Source: Actinomycetes bacterium (lineage in GTDB: Bacteria > Actinomycetota > Actinomycetes > Streptosporangiales > Streptosporangiaceae). Taken from it: 64,000 nt of DNA. The stretch is from assembly GCA_025964575.1 (NCBI GenBank), contig JAOPYO010000021.1, forward strand, positions 1 to 64,000, in the 5' to 3' direction. The notes under the pieces were generated by a model. The model worked only from the letters and a program-made list of their open reading frames with translations, did no database searches and was not told the origin of the DNA. A program made the position numbers and the translations under genes. Shown here piece after piece: positions 923 through 11,921 of the stretch; the first letter of the stretch is position 1; each line of letters opens with the position of its first letter.

Positions 923-2145
923 GCAAGGTTGAGACCAACGGCGAGTTCGACAGCATCGAGGGAGCGATCGCCGACATCGCGGCCGGTCGGCCCGTCATCG
1001 TCGTCGACGACGAGAACCGCGAAAACGAGGGCGACCTCATCTTCGCCGCGGCCAAGGCGACACCGGAGCTGCTGGCCTTCACCGTCCGGCACACCAGCGG
1101 CGTCATCTGCGTCGCCATGCCGGGAGCGGACCTTGACCGGCTCCATATCCCCCTGATGACCTCGCAGAACTCCGAGCACATGCGGACGGCGTTCACGGTC
1201 ACCGTCGACGCCCGACACGGTGTCACCACCGGCATCTCGGCGGCCGACCGGGCGAGGACGATCCGCACCCTGGCCGATTCGGCGACGGAACCGTACGAGC
1301 TCGTACGCCCCGGCCACATCTTTCCGCTCCGCTATCACGAGGGCGGTGTGCTGCGCCGGCGTGGCCACACCGAGGCCGCGGTCGACCTCGCCCGGCTGGC
1401 CGGCCTGCCCGAGGCCGGCGCGCTGTGCGAGGTCGCCAACGACGACGGGACCATGGCGCGGCTGCCCGAGCTTCAGGTGTTCGCCAAGGAGCACGGGCTC
1501 AAGCTGGTCTCCATCGAGCAGCTCGCCGAATATCGCAAGCGCACCGAGACGCTGGTGGAGCGGGTCACCGAGACCCGGCTGCCCAACCGGTTCGGCATGT
1601 GGCGCGCGGTCGGCTACTCCAGTTCCATCGACGGTGGCGAGCACGTCGCCCTGGTCTATGGGGACCTTGGCGATGGGGAGGACGTCCTCATCCGGGCGCA
1701 CTCGGAGTGCCTCACCGGTGACGTGCTGCACTCCGAGCGCTGCGACTGCGGCACCCAGCTCGACGGGGCGATGGAGACGATCGCGGAGGAAGGACGTGGC
1801 GTGGTGCTCTACCTGCGCGGCCACGAGGGCCGGGGCATCGGCCTGCTGGCCAAGCTGCGGGCCTATGCGCTGCAGGACAACGGTTCCGACACCGTCGACG
1901 CCAACCTCGAGCTCGGTCTGCCGGCCGACGCCCGCGAGTACACCAATGCCGCCCAGATGCTGATCGATCTCGGCGTGCGCTCGATCCGCGTGCTCACCAA
2001 CAACCCCGCCAAGCTCAGCGGCCTGGAGGGTTTCGGCGTGGAGGTGCTGAGCCGGGTGGCACTGCCGGTGGTCGTCACCGAGCACAACCGGCGTTACCTG
2101 ACGGTCAAGCGGGACCGTCTCGGCCATGAGATCAAGGGCCTGTGA
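919..2145 (+). CDS. ribBA: Bifunctional DHBP synthase / GTP cyclohydrolase II
   Basis: Catalyses both entry steps of riboflavin synthesis: ribulose-5-phosphate to 3,4-dihydroxy-2-butanone-4-phosphate (N-terminal half) and GTP ring opening (C-terminal half). The first domain shows [10 protein letters not shown] near residue 30 and [14 protein letters not shown] near residues 99-112. The second has the zinc ligands C264, C275 and C277 (C-x10-C-x-C) and GHEGRGIGL at 301-309. The length of 408 residues is normal for RibBA. Its ATG overlaps the ribM stop. The stop codon lies inside a 14-bp tandem repeat. Confidence 0.97.
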
Positions 2146-2175
2146 GCGAGGGCCTGTGATCGAGGGCCTGTGAGC
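2134..2175 (+). repeat. 14-bp tandem repeat spanning the ribBA stop codon
   Basis: Three head-to-tail 14-bp units, consensus RAGGGCCTGTGAKC, at 2134-2147, 2148-2161 and 2162-2175. The first unit contains the ribBA stop codon, so the later units repeat the stop region in the untranslated gap. This looks like replication slippage. Repeat copy B follows in the same gap. Confidence 0.8.
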
Positions 2176-2240
2176 GAGGCGTCGGAAAGGGCCCGCGCGG
2201 TGCGAACCCGCCGCGCGGGTGGAGTGAAAGGGGAGTACGC

Positions 2241-2864
<624 letters not shown>

Positions 2865-5543: not shown

Positions 5544-6215
5544 ATGTCACAGCGGCACCATGACGACAAGATCTCGATGCTCCCTCTGGTGAATCGGATC
5601 TCCAGTGTCGGCACCGCGACGGCCGTGCTCGTCGCACTGTCGCTCTGCGCCATCGTTGAGCAGACGATCCTGCCGTTGCGGACGAAGCCCGTCCGGTTCG
5701 CGGCAGGGACTCCTTTCCCGGAGACCCCGCACGAGGTGTCCTCCGCCGGGGCCTCGCCCCGGTCCTCTCGAGCCTCCCCTCTGGAGTCGGAGGTTCAGAC
5801 GATGGTGCTCGCGCAACACGGGCCGACGGCCCGCCTTGCGTACGGAGTGCCGAATCTCGCGCGGCCCATCGTCCGGCTGAGCAGGATCGACCGTAAGCGG
5901 GGCTGGGCTTTCGGAACCTCCGCGATTCCGCCGCCCGCGGGGGTGATGGCCAGGCCGGACGTCTCGGTGTTCGTCGCCCGTGCGGCGGGGGCCAGATGGG
6001 TGATCGGGCTCGCCGGCACCAAGGACTTCCTGCGGTTGCTGGGGCAGGCCCCCGGTTCGCTGATCTCCAAGGACGAGCGGATTTCGCTGACCGGCTACGG
6101 CAGCGCCGCCGCGACGAAGGCGAAGCCCGGGGGTGGCGACACCGGGCCGTCCCCGGGTGGTGCACCGCCTCCCACGCCCACCCGATCTTTGGACGTCGAT
6201 GAAACAGCATGGTGA
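5544..6215 (+). CDS. Membrane-anchored exported protein of unknown function (redox module)
   Basis: Not recognised. This 223-residue protein has one N-terminal transmembrane segment (about residues 20-42), then a soluble part expected outside the membrane with a Ser/Pro-rich linker and a compact central region (about 85-195). It has a single cysteine, in the membrane segment, and no CxxCH heme motif. It overlaps the ferric-reductase-like gene and is probably co-transcribed with it and the NuoF-like gene. As the only extracytoplasmic part of the module it may deliver electrons to, or bind, an external acceptor. That role is inferred. Confidence 0.7.
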   Translation: MSQRHHDDKISMLPLVNRISSVGTATAVLVALSLCAIVEQTILPLRTKPVRFAAGTPFPETPHEVSSAGASPRSSRASPLESEVQTMVLAQHGPTARLAYGVPNLARPIVRLSRIDRKRGWAFGTSAIPPPAGVMARPDVSVFVARAAGARWVIGLAGTKDFLRLLGQAPGSLISKDERISLTGYGSAAATKAKPGGGDTGPSPGGAPPPTPTRSLDVDETAW

Positions 6216-7014
6216 ACTGGCCGCCGAGATCAGCGGCCTCGCGCCCCGCCGGCGGAGGCTTGTGTCGGGCCCTCTCGTCTGTGTGCTTCTCGCCGGAGTT
6301 CTAGGGGGAGGCAGCACCCAGCGCGGCGCCGTGGTGGTCGCGCAGATCCGTGCCTCACTGGAGTTCTACGCCGGTGTGCTCGTACTCCTGGCGCTGACCG
6401 CCACCGTGGTGGCCGGTCTGGTGGCCGCAGGACGCGTGGCGCCGGTCCGGCTGCGTATCCTCGCCCAGTCCGCTCACCGCGCGGCGGCGGTCATGGCCGT
6501 GAGCTTTCTGGTGGCGCACGTGCTGCTGAAGCTCATGGAGCGGCACGCCGCCGTGATCGACGTGGTCGTGCCGTTCTCCGGGGGGCGGGGCGGCCGTGAC
6601 CTCTATTTGGGCCTCGGCACCATCGCGAGCGATCTCATGATCCTGGTGCTCGTCACCGGGGTGGCCAGGGGCCGGTACATCGGCGGCGCCCACCCGTGGA
6701 TGTGGCGGATGCTGCACTCCATCGCCTATATCTCGTGGCCCATCGCGATCGTGCACGGACTGATGGCCGGCCGTACGCCCAAGCCCTGGGTGACCTGGAG
6801 CTATGTGGTCTGCTTCGCCTTGGTCGTGTTCGCGGCGATGGCCCGGCTCGTGGCGACGGTGTTCCGGCGCAAGGGTGCGGTGCGACGCGGCGGTGCCCGC
6901 GAACGACGGCCGGTGGCCCCGATCGACCAGCCGACCGTGCACGCCATCCCCGATGAGGAGTTCTGGTCGGCGCTGAAGGCGGAGACGACCCAGTGGATCG
7001 GGGGCCGGCGATGA
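6199..7014 (+). CDS. Ferric reductase/NOX-like bis-heme membrane protein
   Basis: A 271-residue integral membrane protein with about six hydrophobic segments. Two histidine pairs, H93/H107 and H173/H186, are spaced 14 and 13 residues apart, the spacing known for the two b-heme ligand pairs of NADPH oxidases and ferric reductases. Unlike those proteins it has no cytosolic FAD/NAD(P)H domain; the tail is only about 60 residues. The next gene, overlapping by four bases, encodes a NuoF-like NADH flavoprotein that could supply that function. The start chosen is the ATG at 6199, which overlaps the end of the upstream gene. Likely role: transmembrane electron transfer. Confidence 0.78.
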   Translation: MKQHGELAAEISGLAPRRRRLVSGPLVCVLLAGVLGGGSTQRGAVVVAQIRASLEFYAGVLVLLALTATVVAGLVAAGRVAPVRLRILAQSAHRAAAVMAVSFLVAHVLLKLMERHAAVIDVVVPFSGGRGGRDLYLGLGTIASDLMILVLVTGVARGRYIGGAHPWMWRMLHSIAYISWPIAIVHGLMAGRTPKPWVTWSYVVCFALVVFAAMARLVATVFRRKGAVRRGGARERRPVAPIDQPTVHAIPDEEFWSALKAETTQWIGGRR

Positions 7015-8513
7015 GCGGCATCCCCGACGTCCTGCACATCGGTCCCGCACGGCTCTTCCAAGGGCTCGACCGCCTGCAGCGGCTCGACCTCGATGGGCAC
7101 CGCAAATTCCATCGCGTTCTGCCTGATTTCTCATTCCGTGAGCTGGTGGCGCTGGCCGAAAGTGTCGATCTGCGTGGCCGTGGCGGTGCCGCCTTTCCCT
7201 TCGCTCGCAAACTGCAGGCGGTCGACTCCGCGGTCCGCCGTCGCGACTCGCCTGCCGTGGTGCTCGTCAACGCCACCGAAGGTGAGCCGGCGAGCGCCAA
7301 GGACAAGGTCCTCCTCGCCCGCGCACCCCACCTCGTCCTCAATGGCGCCATGCTCGCGGTCCGCGCGCTCAACGCGAGCGAACTCGTCATCGGGGTGACC
7401 GACGGAGGCCCGCCCGAGCGGTCGATCCGAGCTGCCGTCAAGGAGGTGGGGCGGGCCGGCTTCGTGCGGGTGGTCCATCTTCCGGAACGGTTCATCACTG
7501 GTGAGGGCGGTGCGCTCGTCCGCGGCGTCAACGGACTGGAGCCCATCCCGCCCGGCCGCAAGGTCCGCGCCGCGGAGAGCGGCGTCAACGGCCTGCCGAC
7601 GCTGCTCTCCAACGCCGAGACGTTCGCCCAGCTGGCGATGCTGGCAGAGCTGGGTACCAAGGGCTACCGGGACATCGGGACCCAGGAGGAGCCGGGCACC
7701 GTCCTGCTCACGGTCTCGGGCGCCGCCGGGAAGCGGACGGTGGTGGAGGCGCCGTCCGGTGTTCCGCTCCTCGATGTGCTCCGCCGGTGCGGGGTCGGAG
7801 TCGGCCAGGGTGTGATGATCGGCGGCTACCACGGTGCGTGGCTCACCCCCGTCGGCGCGGCCAACGCCAGGGTCTCGAGGGCGGCAATGGCCGAGGCCGG
7901 TGCGACGCTGGGCGCGGGCATCGTCGTCCCTCTCGACGAGGGGACCTGCCCGCTGGGCGAGGTCGCCCGAGTGGCGGACTACCTCGGTGCCGAGTCGGCG
8001 GGACAGTGCGGACCGTGCCGTCTGGGGCTGCCGGCGATCGCCCGGTCGTTCTCCGCGCTGGCCGCGGGCAAGTCCGGTGGCGAGGCGCTCTCGGCTATAC
8101 AGCAGGGCAGCTCGGTCGTGCGGGGCCGTGGTGCCTGCCATCACCCGGACGGTACGACCAGATTCCTCCTGTCCGCGGTCGACGTGTTCAGCGATGATGT
8201 CGCCACTCATCTCGCCAGGGGCAGCTGCGGGCGGCCCGTGCGGAAACTGCTCCCCGTGCCCGGTGAGCAGGACGAGGACTCGGGTCTGCAGCTGACGGTG
8301 GACTGGTCGCGCTGCGCGGGTCATGGGCTCTGCGGGCACCTGGTTCCCGAGCTCATCAAGCTCGACCCCTACGGCTACCCGATGCTCACCGATGCGCAGG
8401 TGCCCACCCGGTCGCTGTGGGACGCCCGGCAGGCCGCCGAGATGTGCCCGGCGCTGGCACTCGGCCTCCGCCGTTCGCCGACCGCAGGCCGCTCCGCACT
8501 CGGCTCCGCGTAA
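7011..8513 (+). CDS. NuoF-like NADH dehydrogenase flavoprotein fused to ferredoxin
   Basis: A 500-residue soluble protein. The NuoF-like part has GRGGAAFPF near residue 56 (FMN site), NATEGEPASAKDK near 87 (nucleotide site), an SLBB-like domain (about 230-285) and a Fe-S region with C333, C336 and C376. The first of the four usual cysteines is A330 (ESAGQCGPCR). The C-terminus is a ferredoxin of the three-cysteine type (C435, C441, C479-P), typical of 3Fe-4S partners. It probably passes electrons from NADH to the overlapping bis-heme membrane protein (ATGA overlap). The physiological acceptor is unknown. Confidence 0.85.
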   Translation: MSGIPDVLHIGPARLFQGLDRLQRLDLDGHRKFHRVLPDFSFRELVALAESVDLRGRGGAAFPFARKLQAVDSAVRRRDSPAVVLVNATEGEPASAKDKVLLARAPHLVLNGAMLAVRALNASELVIGVTDGGPPERSIRAAVKEVGRAGFVRVVHLPERFITGEGGALVRGVNGLEPIPPGRKVRAAESGVNGLPTLLSNAETFAQLAMLAELGTKGYRDIGTQEEPGTVLLTVSGAAGKRTVVEAPSGVPLLDVLRRCGVGVGQGVMIGGYHGAWLTPVGAANARVSRAAMAEAGATLGAGIVVPLDEGTCPLGEVARVADYLGAESAGQCGPCRLGLPAIARSFSALAAGKSGGEALSAIQQGSSVVRGRGACHHPDGTTRFLLSAVDVFSDDVATHLARGSCGRPVRKLLPVPGEQDEDSGLQLTVDWSRCAGHGLCGHLVPELIKLDPYGYPMLTDAQVPTRSLWDARQAAEMCPALALGLRRSPTAGRSALGSA

Positions 8514-8547: not shown

Positions 8548-9183
8548 TCAGGCGGTCAGGAGGGTGGCGGTGCCGGCGCCGATCAGTGCGACGGCCCAGA
8601 GCCGGTCGAGGTTGAACCAGGCCCGGCGCAGGATGGCCAGGCCGACGACCTCGTACACCAGGACCGCGATCACTCCCGCCACCACGAACATGGCGAGGGT
8701 GTGCACTCCGGTCACGAACATTCCAGCAGTGAGCGCGCTGCCCGGGCCATGGCTCAGGCCATGAGCGTGGGCGGCCGGCCCGGACGCCTCGGAGGTCAGC
8801 ACCGGCAGCAGCATCAGCCCGGCACCGTGCACCGACGACATCAGGAACGACCAGCCGGCCAGCTGCCACAGCGACAGCTTCATCCCGACCCAGCGGAAAT
8901 GACGGTTGGACAGCAGCCGCCACAGGCCGAAGCCGACCAGTAGTACGCCCCCGCCGATGGCGACCACCTGGGTGGTCACCACCGACTGGGTGAGGGAGAC
9001 CAGGATCGCGACGACGCCGACCGAGGCGGCGTGCCCGGCCGCGATCGCGGGCAGCGACTGCAGCACCCGAGTCCGCGACCGCTCCTGCAACCCCCTGGCC
9101 ACGGCGAACAGCCAGCCCATTCCGGGGTTGAGGCCGTGAAAGGCGCCGAGGGCGACCAGCGCCGCCAGCGATCCGTTGGTCAT
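8548..9183 (-). CDS. Multi-span membrane protein linked to SBP56
   Basis: A 211-residue protein with about six membrane segments. The start has an FHGLNPGMGW motif, with further conserved histidines (SSVHGAGL, GVHTLAMF) and a His-rich loop (HAHGLSHG), features reminiscent of metal or sulfur-compound exporters of the NicO/RcnA or TauE type. I do not recognise a named family with confidence. It lies 19 bases downstream of the SBP56 gene in what looks like one transcript, so a role in handling a sulfur or selenium product, or copper for SBP56, is plausible. Confidence 0.65.
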   Translation of the reverse strand: MTNGSLAALVALGAFHGLNPGMGWLFAVARGLQERSRTRVLQSLPAIAAGHAASVGVVAILVSLTQSVVTTQVVAIGGGVLLVGFGLWRLLSNRHFRWVGMKLSLWQLAGWSFLMSSVHGAGLMLLPVLTSEASGPAAHAHGLSHGPGSALTAGMFVTGVHTLAMFVVAGVIAVLVYEVVGLAILRRAWFNLDRLWAVALIGAGTATLLTA

Positions 9184-9202: not shown

Positions 9203-10615
9203 TCATGGGTAGCAGTACGAGTCGGAGGAGGCGTCCCCGCCCTGCAGCCGGGTCTGGTGCGGGCGCAGCCCGCGGAAGTCGTCGCCGTGCGGGAAGAACC
9301 GCTCGTCGAAGGTGAATCCCTGGCCTGAACGATCTGGGGTCGAGTCGAGCTTGGCCGCCCAAGCGCCGACCCCGTCGGGATAGAACTGGTCGTCCCACGC
9401 GCCGTACAGCGAGTTCGTCACATAGACGCGACGACCGTCGCGGCTGACCTCGACCATCTGCGGCCCGCCGGCCAGGGGCAGATCCGGTGCGGCGGGGTGC
9501 GGCGTGCGGCCGACGATGCCGCCGATCCGCACCGATCCGGCCTCGACGGGGTGGAAGGGGTCGCTGACGTCGTAGCGCTTGAGCTCACCGGTGCCCCAGC
9601 ACGAGACGTACAGCCACTGGTCGTCCACCGACAGGTCGATGTCGGTGATCAGCGGGGGTACGGCTCCGAACGGCGCGATCACCGGCGGCAGGTCCTCCGC
9701 GGCGGCGGGCTCGGCCGGGATCGAGATGACCTTCGTGGCGGCCCACTGGTCGCCGTCCCGATGCCAGAGCCAGACCGACGCCGACAGGTCCTCGACGCTG
9801 ACCACCACCCCGACGAATCCGTACTGTTGGGTGGGGTCATGAGCAGGGCGCAGTTCCAGGGCCATCTGGTGCTCATCACCGAGGTCGACGGTCTGCACAT
9901 GCTTGCGCTTGCGCAGGTCCCAGAAGTGCAGCGAGTGGCCGTACTTACGGCCGAGCAGCAGCTCGCCGACCACCCCGTCCTCGATCATGGACGGGGTGCC
10001 CCACTCCGAGGTGACCAGCACGTCGTGCGCGATGTGCCACCAGGCGTCGTAGGCGAAGTACTGCGGGCCGCGCTCCACCTCCCAGCGGCCGAGCACGTCG
10101 AAGGAGGTGTGGTCGAGCAGCGCGATTCCGCCCGGTCCGTCCTCGCCGTTGGCGCCGCCGAGCGCGCTGACATAGAGACCCTCGGGCCCGCAGTGCACGG
10201 TGTGCGGCCGGGAGTAGCCCGCGCGCTTGGCCAGCTCGTCGGGCTCCAGCACTTTGATGATTTCCGGGCTGGTCGGATTCTCCTTGGTGTCGATCACATA
10301 GATCCGCGATGACCGCAGCCCGGGCACGATCAGATAGCGCCGTTCCACATGCGGGTGCGGGGAGCCCGGGCACAGCGCGCTGCTGCAGGCGTTCCAGCCG
10401 AAGTGGTGCAGCTCGTCCCCGACATAGGGCAGGTCGGTCCAGCCGATCACCTGGCCATAGGACGCCGATTCCTCGTCGACGTCGAGGACCACGATGGCAT
10501 CGGGCTTCTCCGCGGCCCGGTCGAAGGCCGCGACATAGGCGAGCTTCTCTGGCGGCGCGGAGGCCGCGTCCCGGGGAGAGGCATAGAAGGTGGGGTCGGG
10601 CTTCCACAGCGCCAT
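9203..10615 (-). CDS. Selenium-binding protein 56 family / methanethiol oxidase
   Basis: A 470-residue SBP56 protein with a seven-bladed propeller. Signature stretches are HHFGWNACSSALC near residue 85, the HCGPEGLY segment and CWGTGELKRYDV near 360. Bacterial and human SBP56 proteins oxidise methanethiol to formaldehyde, hydrogen peroxide and sulfide with bound copper. The start is the ATG at 10615, preceded by AGGAGG. It sits 61 bases downstream of a sulfite oxidase-like gene, which suggests oxidation of C1-sulfur compounds. Confidence 0.9.
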   Translation of the reverse strand: MALWKPDPTFYASPRDAASAPPEKLAYVAAFDRAAEKPDAIVVLDVDEESASYGQVIGWTDLPYVGDELHHFGWNACSSALCPGSPHPHVERRYLIVPGLRSSRIYVIDTKENPTSPEIIKVLEPDELAKRAGYSRPHTVHCGPEGLYVSALGGANGEDGPGGIALLDHTSFDVLGRWEVERGPQYFAYDAWWHIAHDVLVTSEWGTPSMIEDGVVGELLLGRKYGHSLHFWDLRKRKHVQTVDLGDEHQMALELRPAHDPTQQYGFVGVVVSVEDLSASVWLWHRDGDQWAATKVISIPAEPAAAEDLPPVIAPFGAVPPLITDIDLSVDDQWLYVSCWGTGELKRYDVSDPFHPVEAGSVRIGGIVGRTPHPAAPDLPLAGGPQMVEVSRDGRRVYVTNSLYGAWDDQFYPDGVGAWAAKLDSTPDRSGQGFTFDERFFPHGDDFRGLRPHQTRLQGGDASSDSYCYP

Positions 10616-10676: not shown

Positions 10677-11921
10677 TCAGGCCACCGTGACCGGGTGCCG
10701 GACGACGGCCCCGAACAGGTAGCCGAGCGTGTTATAGGGGGCCAGATCCGGCTGGGTGGCACCGGTCTCGTCGGTGGCCCGCGCCAGCAGCTCGTACGAC
10801 CCCGGGTGTTCGGGCCGCCAATGGACCTCCCACGTTAGCCAGGCGCGGGATCCGCGCTGGTCACGAGGGTGGGCTCTGCGCCAGGTCACGCCACCGTCGA
10901 CGCTGACCTCCACCTGCCGGATACGCCCGTTGCCGGACCAGGAGCGCCCGTGCAGCACCTGGGTGCGGCCGGTGGTGAGCTGGGCGTTCCAGGGTAGTTC
11001 GAAGGCGCTCTTCACGACCTGACGGGTCAGTGGCGCGCTGCCCTCGGGCGGGTATCCGGGGCCGAACAGCCGGTAGTACTGGGTGTTCCACGGCGAGAAC
11101 AGTGGCTGATCCGCCACCTGAATGTCGCCGAGCCACTTGATGGAGGCGATGCCCACCCAGGACGGCACCACGAGCCGGACCGGGAATCCGTGGTCGGGCT
11201 GCAGCGGTCTTCCGTTCATCTCGTACGCCAGCAACACGTCCTTGAGCGCCTTGGCGACCGGCAGGGGTCGCCGGACCCGGCCCAGGTTCACGCCCTTGTC
11301 AAGGAACTCGGCGTCGAGCCCGCGCGGGAGGAGATCCACGGCCCGCCGGCTCAGACCCGCGCGTTCCAGGACGGTCGACAGCCGTACGCCGCGCCAGTGC
11401 GCCACCCCGACCCCACCGAGCTTCCACGGGGTTCCGCTCACCGTCTGGCCCTGCTGGGTGGTGTAGAAGCTGCGGCCGTTGCCGGTGCACTCGATGAACG
11501 CGGTCAGGCCCTCGGCGGGCAGCCTCAGCAGGTCCTCGTAGGAGAACTCGACCGGCCGATCCTCTCCGGGGGAGTCGCGCAGGCCGGTGCCCCAGAGCTT
11601 GAGCCGCCAGGTCTTCGCGTCGATGAGCGGGGTGCGGGTGTGGTTGCGGACGAAGAACCGGTCGGTGGGGGTCAGATAACCCTGACCCCGCATGGCCTCC
11701 CACTTGGTCTCCGCGTTCGTCCCGTACACCGTGAACAGCTCGGGTGGCAGTGGCTTGACGATCGGGTCGTCGGCGAACGCCCGTCCAGCCGAGGAGGTGA
11801 GGATCGTGGCGCCGAGACCGGCCCCCGCGGATGCTCGCAGCAGATTCCGCCGAGAAAGGTGCCGATGCCACTGAGCCGCACGCACCTGCTGGTACGTGGC
11901 CTCATCCGTGAGGTCGTCCAT
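10677..11921 (-). CDS. Tat-exported molybdopterin sulfite oxidase family protein
   Basis: A 414-residue protein with a twin-arginine signal (SRRNLLR at 23-29 and a hydrophobic stretch ending near AFA-DD), the oxidoreductase molybdopterin domain with ECTGNGRS (C145, the cysteine expected to bind Mo), and a C-terminal Mo-cofactor dimerisation domain. The architecture matches the plant/SorT-like sulfite oxidase group. No cytochrome subunit is beside it. Together with SBP56 downstream it suggests an exported sulfite-oxidising step. Its promoter shares a short AT-rich gap with the divergent MoxR gene. Confidence 0.87.
   Translation of the reverse strand: MDDLTDEATYQQVRAAQWHRHLSRRNLLRASAGAGLGATILTSSAGRAFADDPIVKPLPPELFTVYGTNAETKWEAMRGQGYLTPTDRFFVRNHTRTPLIDAKTWRLKLWGTGLRDSPGEDRPVEFSYEDLLRLPAEGLTAFIECTGNGRSFYTTQQGQTVSGTPWKLGGVGVAHWRGVRLSTVLERAGLSRRAVDLLPRGLDAEFLDKGVNLGRVRRPLPVAKALKDVLLAYEMNGRPLQPDHGFPVRLVVPSWVGIASIKWLGDIQVADQPLFSPWNTQYYRLFGPGYPPEGSAPLTRQVVKSAFELPWNAQLTTGRTQVLHGRSWSGNGRIRQVEVSVDGGVTWRRAHPRDQRGSRAWLTWEVHWRPEHPGSYELLARATDETGATQPDLAPYNTLGYLFGAVVRHPVTVA

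Follow-up and report, generated by a model that had tools for sequence, protein, structure and literature searches.

Within the 64,000-nucleotide stretch of actinomycete DNA analysed here (the window), three overlapping open reading frames on the forward strand encode an exported anchored protein, a membrane cytochrome and a NuoF-like flavoprotein, all three of which were found as the original prediction had placed them. The genes and their features are:

5544..6215, +, exported partner protein with a membrane anchor, 223 aa (ORF, homologues)
5598..5654, +, transmembrane anchor predicted in the exported protein (hydropathy maximum of 2.03 at aa 19; kept in relatives)
6199..7014, +, six-helix membrane cytochrome with NOX-type histidine pairs (ORF, alignment, model)
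6475..6519, +, H93 and H107, putative pair of heme ligands on helix 3 (79/79 invariant; model helix 83-113)
6715..6756, +, H173 and H186, putative pair of heme ligands on helix 5 (79/79 invariant; model helix 166-188)
7011..8513, +, NuoF-like flavoprotein with fused C-terminal ferredoxin, 500 aa (ORF, Pfam)
7170..7211, +, FMN-site glycine-rich motif LRGRGGAAFPFARK (G56, G59, F62 and K67 invariant in 83 rows)
7992..8156, +, N3-type iron-sulfur site with ESAGQCGPC, where Ala takes the place of the first Cys, and GACHHPDG, which holds C376 and H378 (alignment)
8292..8468, +, three-cysteine ferredoxin domain, CxxHxxC...CP (Fer4_15)

Translational coupling is suggested by the overlaps: the cytochrome gene (ATG at 6199) shares 17 nt with the gene of the exported protein, and the NuoF-like gene (ATG at 7011) shares 4 nt (ATGA) with the cytochrome gene. 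Neither DUF1996, DUF4142 nor ApbE genes were found among the neighbour genes examined beside the window locus, and no NuoE was recognised among the gene calls beside the NuoF-like gene. Further along lie a small membrane protein (8548-9183) with no Pfam family match and, on the minus strand, an SBP56 protein (9203-10615; E 1.4e-187) whose gene adjoins that of a sulfite-oxidase-like molybdenum enzyme (10677-11921) with a Tat-like signal, SRRNLLRASAG, and Oxidored_molyb and Mo-co_dimer domains.

The membrane cytochrome

Two NOX-type histidine pairs, H93/H107 and H173/H186, had been claimed for the cytochrome, together with the lack of a flavin domain of its own, and both claims hold. Among relatives drawn from 80 loci of one scan of genome contigs, all four histidines are invariant in the 79 aligned cytochromes (79/79), with spacings of H-x13-H and H-x12-H respectively, and no flavin domain was matched by Pfam in the chain. 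The AlphaFold2 model (pLDDT 83.9, pTM 0.67) has six long helices in a NOX/STEAP-like fold and places the four histidines on the third and fifth of them. Searched alone against Pfam and NCBIfam, the window cytochrome returned nothing useful, while family alignments gave matches: Ferric_reduct (PF01794) matches 28 of 49 family members (best 2.6e-11; the window cytochrome is below detection) and the DUF4405 profile distantly matches 16 of the 49. STEAP2, STEAP1, SpNOX and NOX5 were among the best Foldseek matches in the PDB (probability 0.82-1.00, E 0.03-0.5), the top STEAP and SpNOX matches being weak (E 0.03 to 0.15, TM 0.37-0.43), and SpNOX came first when PDB sequences were searched with a profile (E 0.017). 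These lines, individually weak and mutually agreeing, point to the ferric reductase domain (FRD) superfamily (STEAP/SpNOX/NOX5). The conserved heme histidines and the modelled six-helix fold are features of FRD or MsrQ-like proteins, and the predicted six-helix bis-heme domain with its His-X12/14-His pairs is a feature of NOX.

One explanation is that the cytochrome and the NuoF-like protein work as a functional split NADPH oxidase that would make superoxide outside the cell by reducing O2 at the outer heme. The modelled fold and the histidine spacing agree with it, His-X12/14-His being the motif used in NOX screening (PMC5676040). However, Pfam found an FNR-type FAD/NADPH domain in neither the cytochrome nor the NuoF protein, and for this reason the pair falls outside the NOX family as defined. 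In addition, bacterial NOX-like proteins may not use O2 (PMC5676040), and the exported DUF1996, DUF4142 and ApbE/FMN carrier proteins of relatives (see below) suggest a protein or metal acceptor, so that we regard superoxide production as unlikely.

The MsrQ-like character of the cytochrome also brings in a repair system of the MsrPQ type, in which the partner would be the Tat-exported sulfite-oxidase-like enzyme, whose gene lies 2.2 kb downstream and combines a Tat-like signal with the two molybdenum-enzyme domains. Nevertheless, this opposite-strand gene is the only candidate at the window for an MsrP encoded with the cytochrome, the SBP56 gene intervenes, and no such enzyme occurs in the examined neighbourhoods of close relatives. 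The Mo-co_dimer domain, moreover, fits sulfite oxidase rather than MsrP. We rejected the enzyme as acceptor, given that it is not conserved beside relatives, and a repair function of this type appears very unlikely.

The NuoF-like flavoprotein and its ferredoxin

The description of the third protein as a NuoF-like flavoprotein fused to a three-cysteine ferredoxin is borne out by Pfam (Complex1_51K 1.3e-27, NADH_4Fe-4S 4.5e-15, Fer4_15 1.2e-11) and by the ferredoxin motif CxxHxxC...CP, which is invariant, cysteines included, in 27/27 fused relatives. Its NCBIfam NuoF score of 168 bits falls under the curated cut-off of 558.65. The FMN motif and the 51K domain of complex I NuoF are present, but the set of four N3 cysteines is not: alignment to complex I and hydrogenase subunits reveals the replacement of the first one, which is Ala or Ser in 83/83 NuoF-like rows. 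C333, C336, C376 and C406 are invariant across the 83 rows and the histidine of CxHPDG (H378) is kept in 81 of them; His378 or Cys406 is perhaps the fourth ligand of an N3-like cluster. The same comparison shows Gly in place of the second Glu of the GEET motif, which is why the donor is given here as NAD(P)H and not narrowed to NADH or NADPH.

The exported protein and its family

The codon bias of the exported ORF is weak. Because its frame is the best of six, with the sole positive score, and because the product has homologues in a paralogue elsewhere in the genome (34% over 168 aa, 3.3e-19) and in orthologues (45%), it is a gene. The protein consists of an N-terminal transmembrane anchor (approximately aa 19-37) and an N-domain (approximately aa 80-186) and returned nothing useful alone against Pfam and NCBIfam, the matches coming from the family alignment. 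Its relatives carry the anchor, the N-domain and a LytM/M23 domain, and Peptidase_M23 is matched by 13 of 15 family members, the two unmatched being the window protein and the relative at locus L012. The LytM domain is missing in both, and another relative (L009) has little beyond the anchor; despite this loss, the electron-transfer genes are intact at all three loci. Therefore, the earlier description of an exported, anchored protein of unknown fold stands as regards export and anchoring but not as regards the fold, since the family otherwise carries that of LytM/M23 proteins.

The canonical M23 zinc-ligand motif comprises HxxxD and HxH. As the aligned full-length relatives have no His at these places, the LytM/M23 relatives are read as catalytically dead. 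The best folds matching the model of one such relative (L010; pLDDT 79.6) were pseudoalterin, beta-lytic protease and LasA; DipM and EnvC ranked below these. In a search of 250 genomes of the order, with the paralogue from contig C29 of the source genome as query, a relative was present in 74, and strong matches mostly adjoin the cytochrome. An SGAS motif in that paralogue was considered as a flavinylation site and rejected, the motif not being conserved in the alignment.

A LytM/M23 fold deprived of its zinc-binding residues, as in EnvC-type activators, and linked to the cytochrome in many genera is also what would be expected if the system controlled wall remodelling, the dead LytM partner relaying the redox state to a wall amidase in the manner of EnvC-like LytM activators. 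Against this, the electron-transfer genes persist in the window, L012 and L009, where the LytM domain is gone, and other clades have unrelated exported partners. We therefore consider such a role quite improbable.

Linkage and distribution

The source genome (8.18 Mb, 497 contigs) contains three clusters of a cytochrome and a NuoF-like gene. Besides the window (contig C465), one on contig C29 encodes an exported M23-like protein, the cytochrome, a NuoF-ferredoxin, DUF4142 and DUF1996, and one on contig C128 encodes a small Ser-rich exported protein, ApbE, the cytochrome, a NuoF-like protein and a separate ferredoxin. Of the three, the C128 cluster is thus of the ApbE type, and the other two belong to a ferredoxin-fused clade that lacks ApbE. 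Small Ser/Thr-rich exported proteins preceding ApbE, on contig C128 (locus L008, 10135-10551, minus strand) and at loci L053, L057 and L085, end in TSGGS or QSGGS, possibly a flavinylation site.

Of 250 genomes across the order, 140 encode a NuoF-like protein at E values up to 1e-60 and 140 a cytochrome at E values up to 1e-8, counts whose co-occurrence is confounded by phylogeny, and among the matches listed 141 of 150 NuoF-like genes lie within 3 kb of a cytochrome gene. Two genomes (G055, loci L102/L103; G209, L104/L105) have the NuoF-ferredoxin gene 3.4 Mb or 0.17 Mb away from the cytochrome gene and keep both. Hence, of the three genes originally expected to co-occur, the cytochrome and NuoF-like pair is linked across the 250-genome sample, whereas the exported gene varies in identity. 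The pairing seen in this soil actinomycete is real and widespread.

A tree built from 63 NuoF-like rows groups those with a fused ferredoxin into one clade (39 rows, support 100/100) next to the ApbE-type rows, and the window sequence falls within a 7-row clade (100/99) together with Planotetraspora, Streptosporangium and Actinomadura sequences. Midpoint rooting put the root on a very long outgroup branch, and joins between long branches were flagged; the direction of change, with an older ApbE type and a derived fused type, is therefore something that we infer.

Exported partners in relatives

The exported partner varies by clade, being a dead LytM protein, DUF4142 and DUF1996 proteins or, in the putatively older type, an ApbE/FMN carrier. 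Of the 140 genomes that have the NuoF-like gene, 128 also have DUF1996, versus 8 of the 110 that lack it (Fisher p 1e-45, ignoring phylogeny), and, among the matches listed, 30 of 36 lower-scoring DUF1996 genes are within 5 kb of the cytochrome. Examples of an exported DUF1996 beside a cytochrome cluster are L007 (10121-11278), the C29 cluster, and L102 (8587-9795); a second, higher-scoring DUF1996 class sits elsewhere in many genomes. Genome-wide presence of DUF4142 is uninformative, since 240 of 250 genomes carry it, and only its position beside the pair tells. We found no paper, at the level of titles and abstracts, linking DUF1996 or DUF4142 to such cytochromes. Fungal DUF1996 mutants show raised sensitivity to oxidation and to several metal ions (PMC4738358), which we take as a lead only. 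At L102, an AA10-type LPMO (LPMO_10, E 4e-62; 1423-2358, minus strand) is encoded a few kb from the M23/cytochrome/DUF4142/DUF1996 cluster; LPMOs need electrons.

Nearby genes in the DUF4142/DUF1996 clades often encode a sigma factor or a secreted oxidase of the FAD/BBE type. At L096, L097, L101, L106 and L107, in several genera, an FAD_binding_4/BBE oxidase gene whose product has a secretory N-terminus directly adjoins the NuoF-ferredoxin gene. This adjacency would also suit inward flow, in which the hemes would take electrons from an extracytoplasmic donor and the NuoF module would pass them to NAD+. NuoF-type modules of hydrogenases and formate dehydrogenases, which are among the relatives found for the window flavoprotein, do run in either direction. 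In contrast, the characterised FRD relatives MsrQ, NOX and STEAP send electrons toward the outer or envelope side, and we hold inward flow to be rather improbable.

Discussion

Altogether, the cytochrome and the NuoF-ferredoxin probably constitute a two-part transmembrane reductase driven by NAD(P)H, a reading to which we assign a probability of about 75%. Motifs, model and linkage support the core of the original prediction, a bis-heme FRD/NOX-like cytochrome without a flavin domain that is genetically tied to a NuoF-like ferredoxin module. The gene pair, the cofactor motifs, the predicted six-helix FRD-like architecture and the linkage across genomes are read from the sequences. Most likely, the pair moves NAD(P)H electrons across the membrane, in a working resembling that of a split NOX. 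We infer an outward direction, in which electrons would pass from NAD(P)H to FMN in the NuoF-like domain, from FMN to the N3-like Fe-S cluster (three Cys and perhaps His378 or Cys406), from there to the fused three-cysteine ferredoxin and on to two b hemes, which the histidines of helices 3 and 5 would bind, and finally to an extracytoplasmic acceptor. At the outer face, DUF4142, DUF1996 or the dead LytM protein would act in relatives and the cut-down anchored protein in the window; a metal or a secreted redox protein seems a more likely acceptor than O2. More tentatively, the ferredoxin-fused clade may represent a separate, flavinylation-independent electron export with the little-studied DUF1996 and DUF4142 proteins (or the dead LytM protein) as outside electron carriers and a remodelled, possibly His-ligated N3 cluster, an extension that we consider possible and still doubtful.

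Such a reductase would illustrate how actinomycetes join complex I modules with NOX-like cytochromes for envelope electron export, in over half of the 250 genomes sampled from the order. DUF1996 and DUF4142, both domains of unknown function, gain a testable redox context, and the third protein offers a NuoF homologue for studying the loss of an N3 cluster ligand.

The original prediction knew of no described pathway for this arrangement, which does not agree with the literature. Meheust et al. (2021, eLife) described 31 MsrQ-like clusters with a NuoF-like protein, mainly in Actinobacteria, the sets being delimited by an ApbE or FMN-binding gene close by (PMC8238504), and Fre-MsrQ of E. coli is an earlier two-component NOX-like system (discussed in PMC5676040). 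The ApbE clade, putatively the older one, pairs the same cytochrome and NuoF-like genes as in PMC8238504, and the C128 cluster is of the published type, all sharing an FRD cytochrome and a separate NuoF-like (PF10589) donor. The published clusters, however, have ApbE or FMN-binding proteins and, in the loci examined, usually a separate ferredoxin, whereas the clade of the window has no adjoining ApbE, a fused ferredoxin and other exported proteins. Fre-MsrQ likewise feeds a NOX-like membrane cytochrome from a separate cytosolic flavoprotein, but Fre is a flavin reductase and not a NuoF-ferredoxin, and MsrQ passes its electrons to MsrP. With NOX2, NOX5, SpNOX and STEAP the cytochrome shares the predicted six-helix fold and, with NOX, the bis-His pairs on helices 3 and 5 (x13/x12); NOX proteins carry their FAD/NADPH domain in the same chain, while the window cytochrome lacks it and has a complex I-type protein encoded next door. 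DUF4405 proteins, described as six-helix cytochromes with four central His (mSystems 2024, PMC11334425), are alike in these two respects and differ in family and partners. The flavoprotein resembles complex I NuoF and HydB-type subunits in its FMN motif and N3-type Fe-S domain and departs from them in the Ala/Ser at the first N3 position, the CxHPDG histidine, the GEET Gly and the lack of a recognised NuoE. The arrangement is therefore not wholly new; what is new is that a clade lacks flavinylation genes, has exported partners of its own and carries an altered N3 site.
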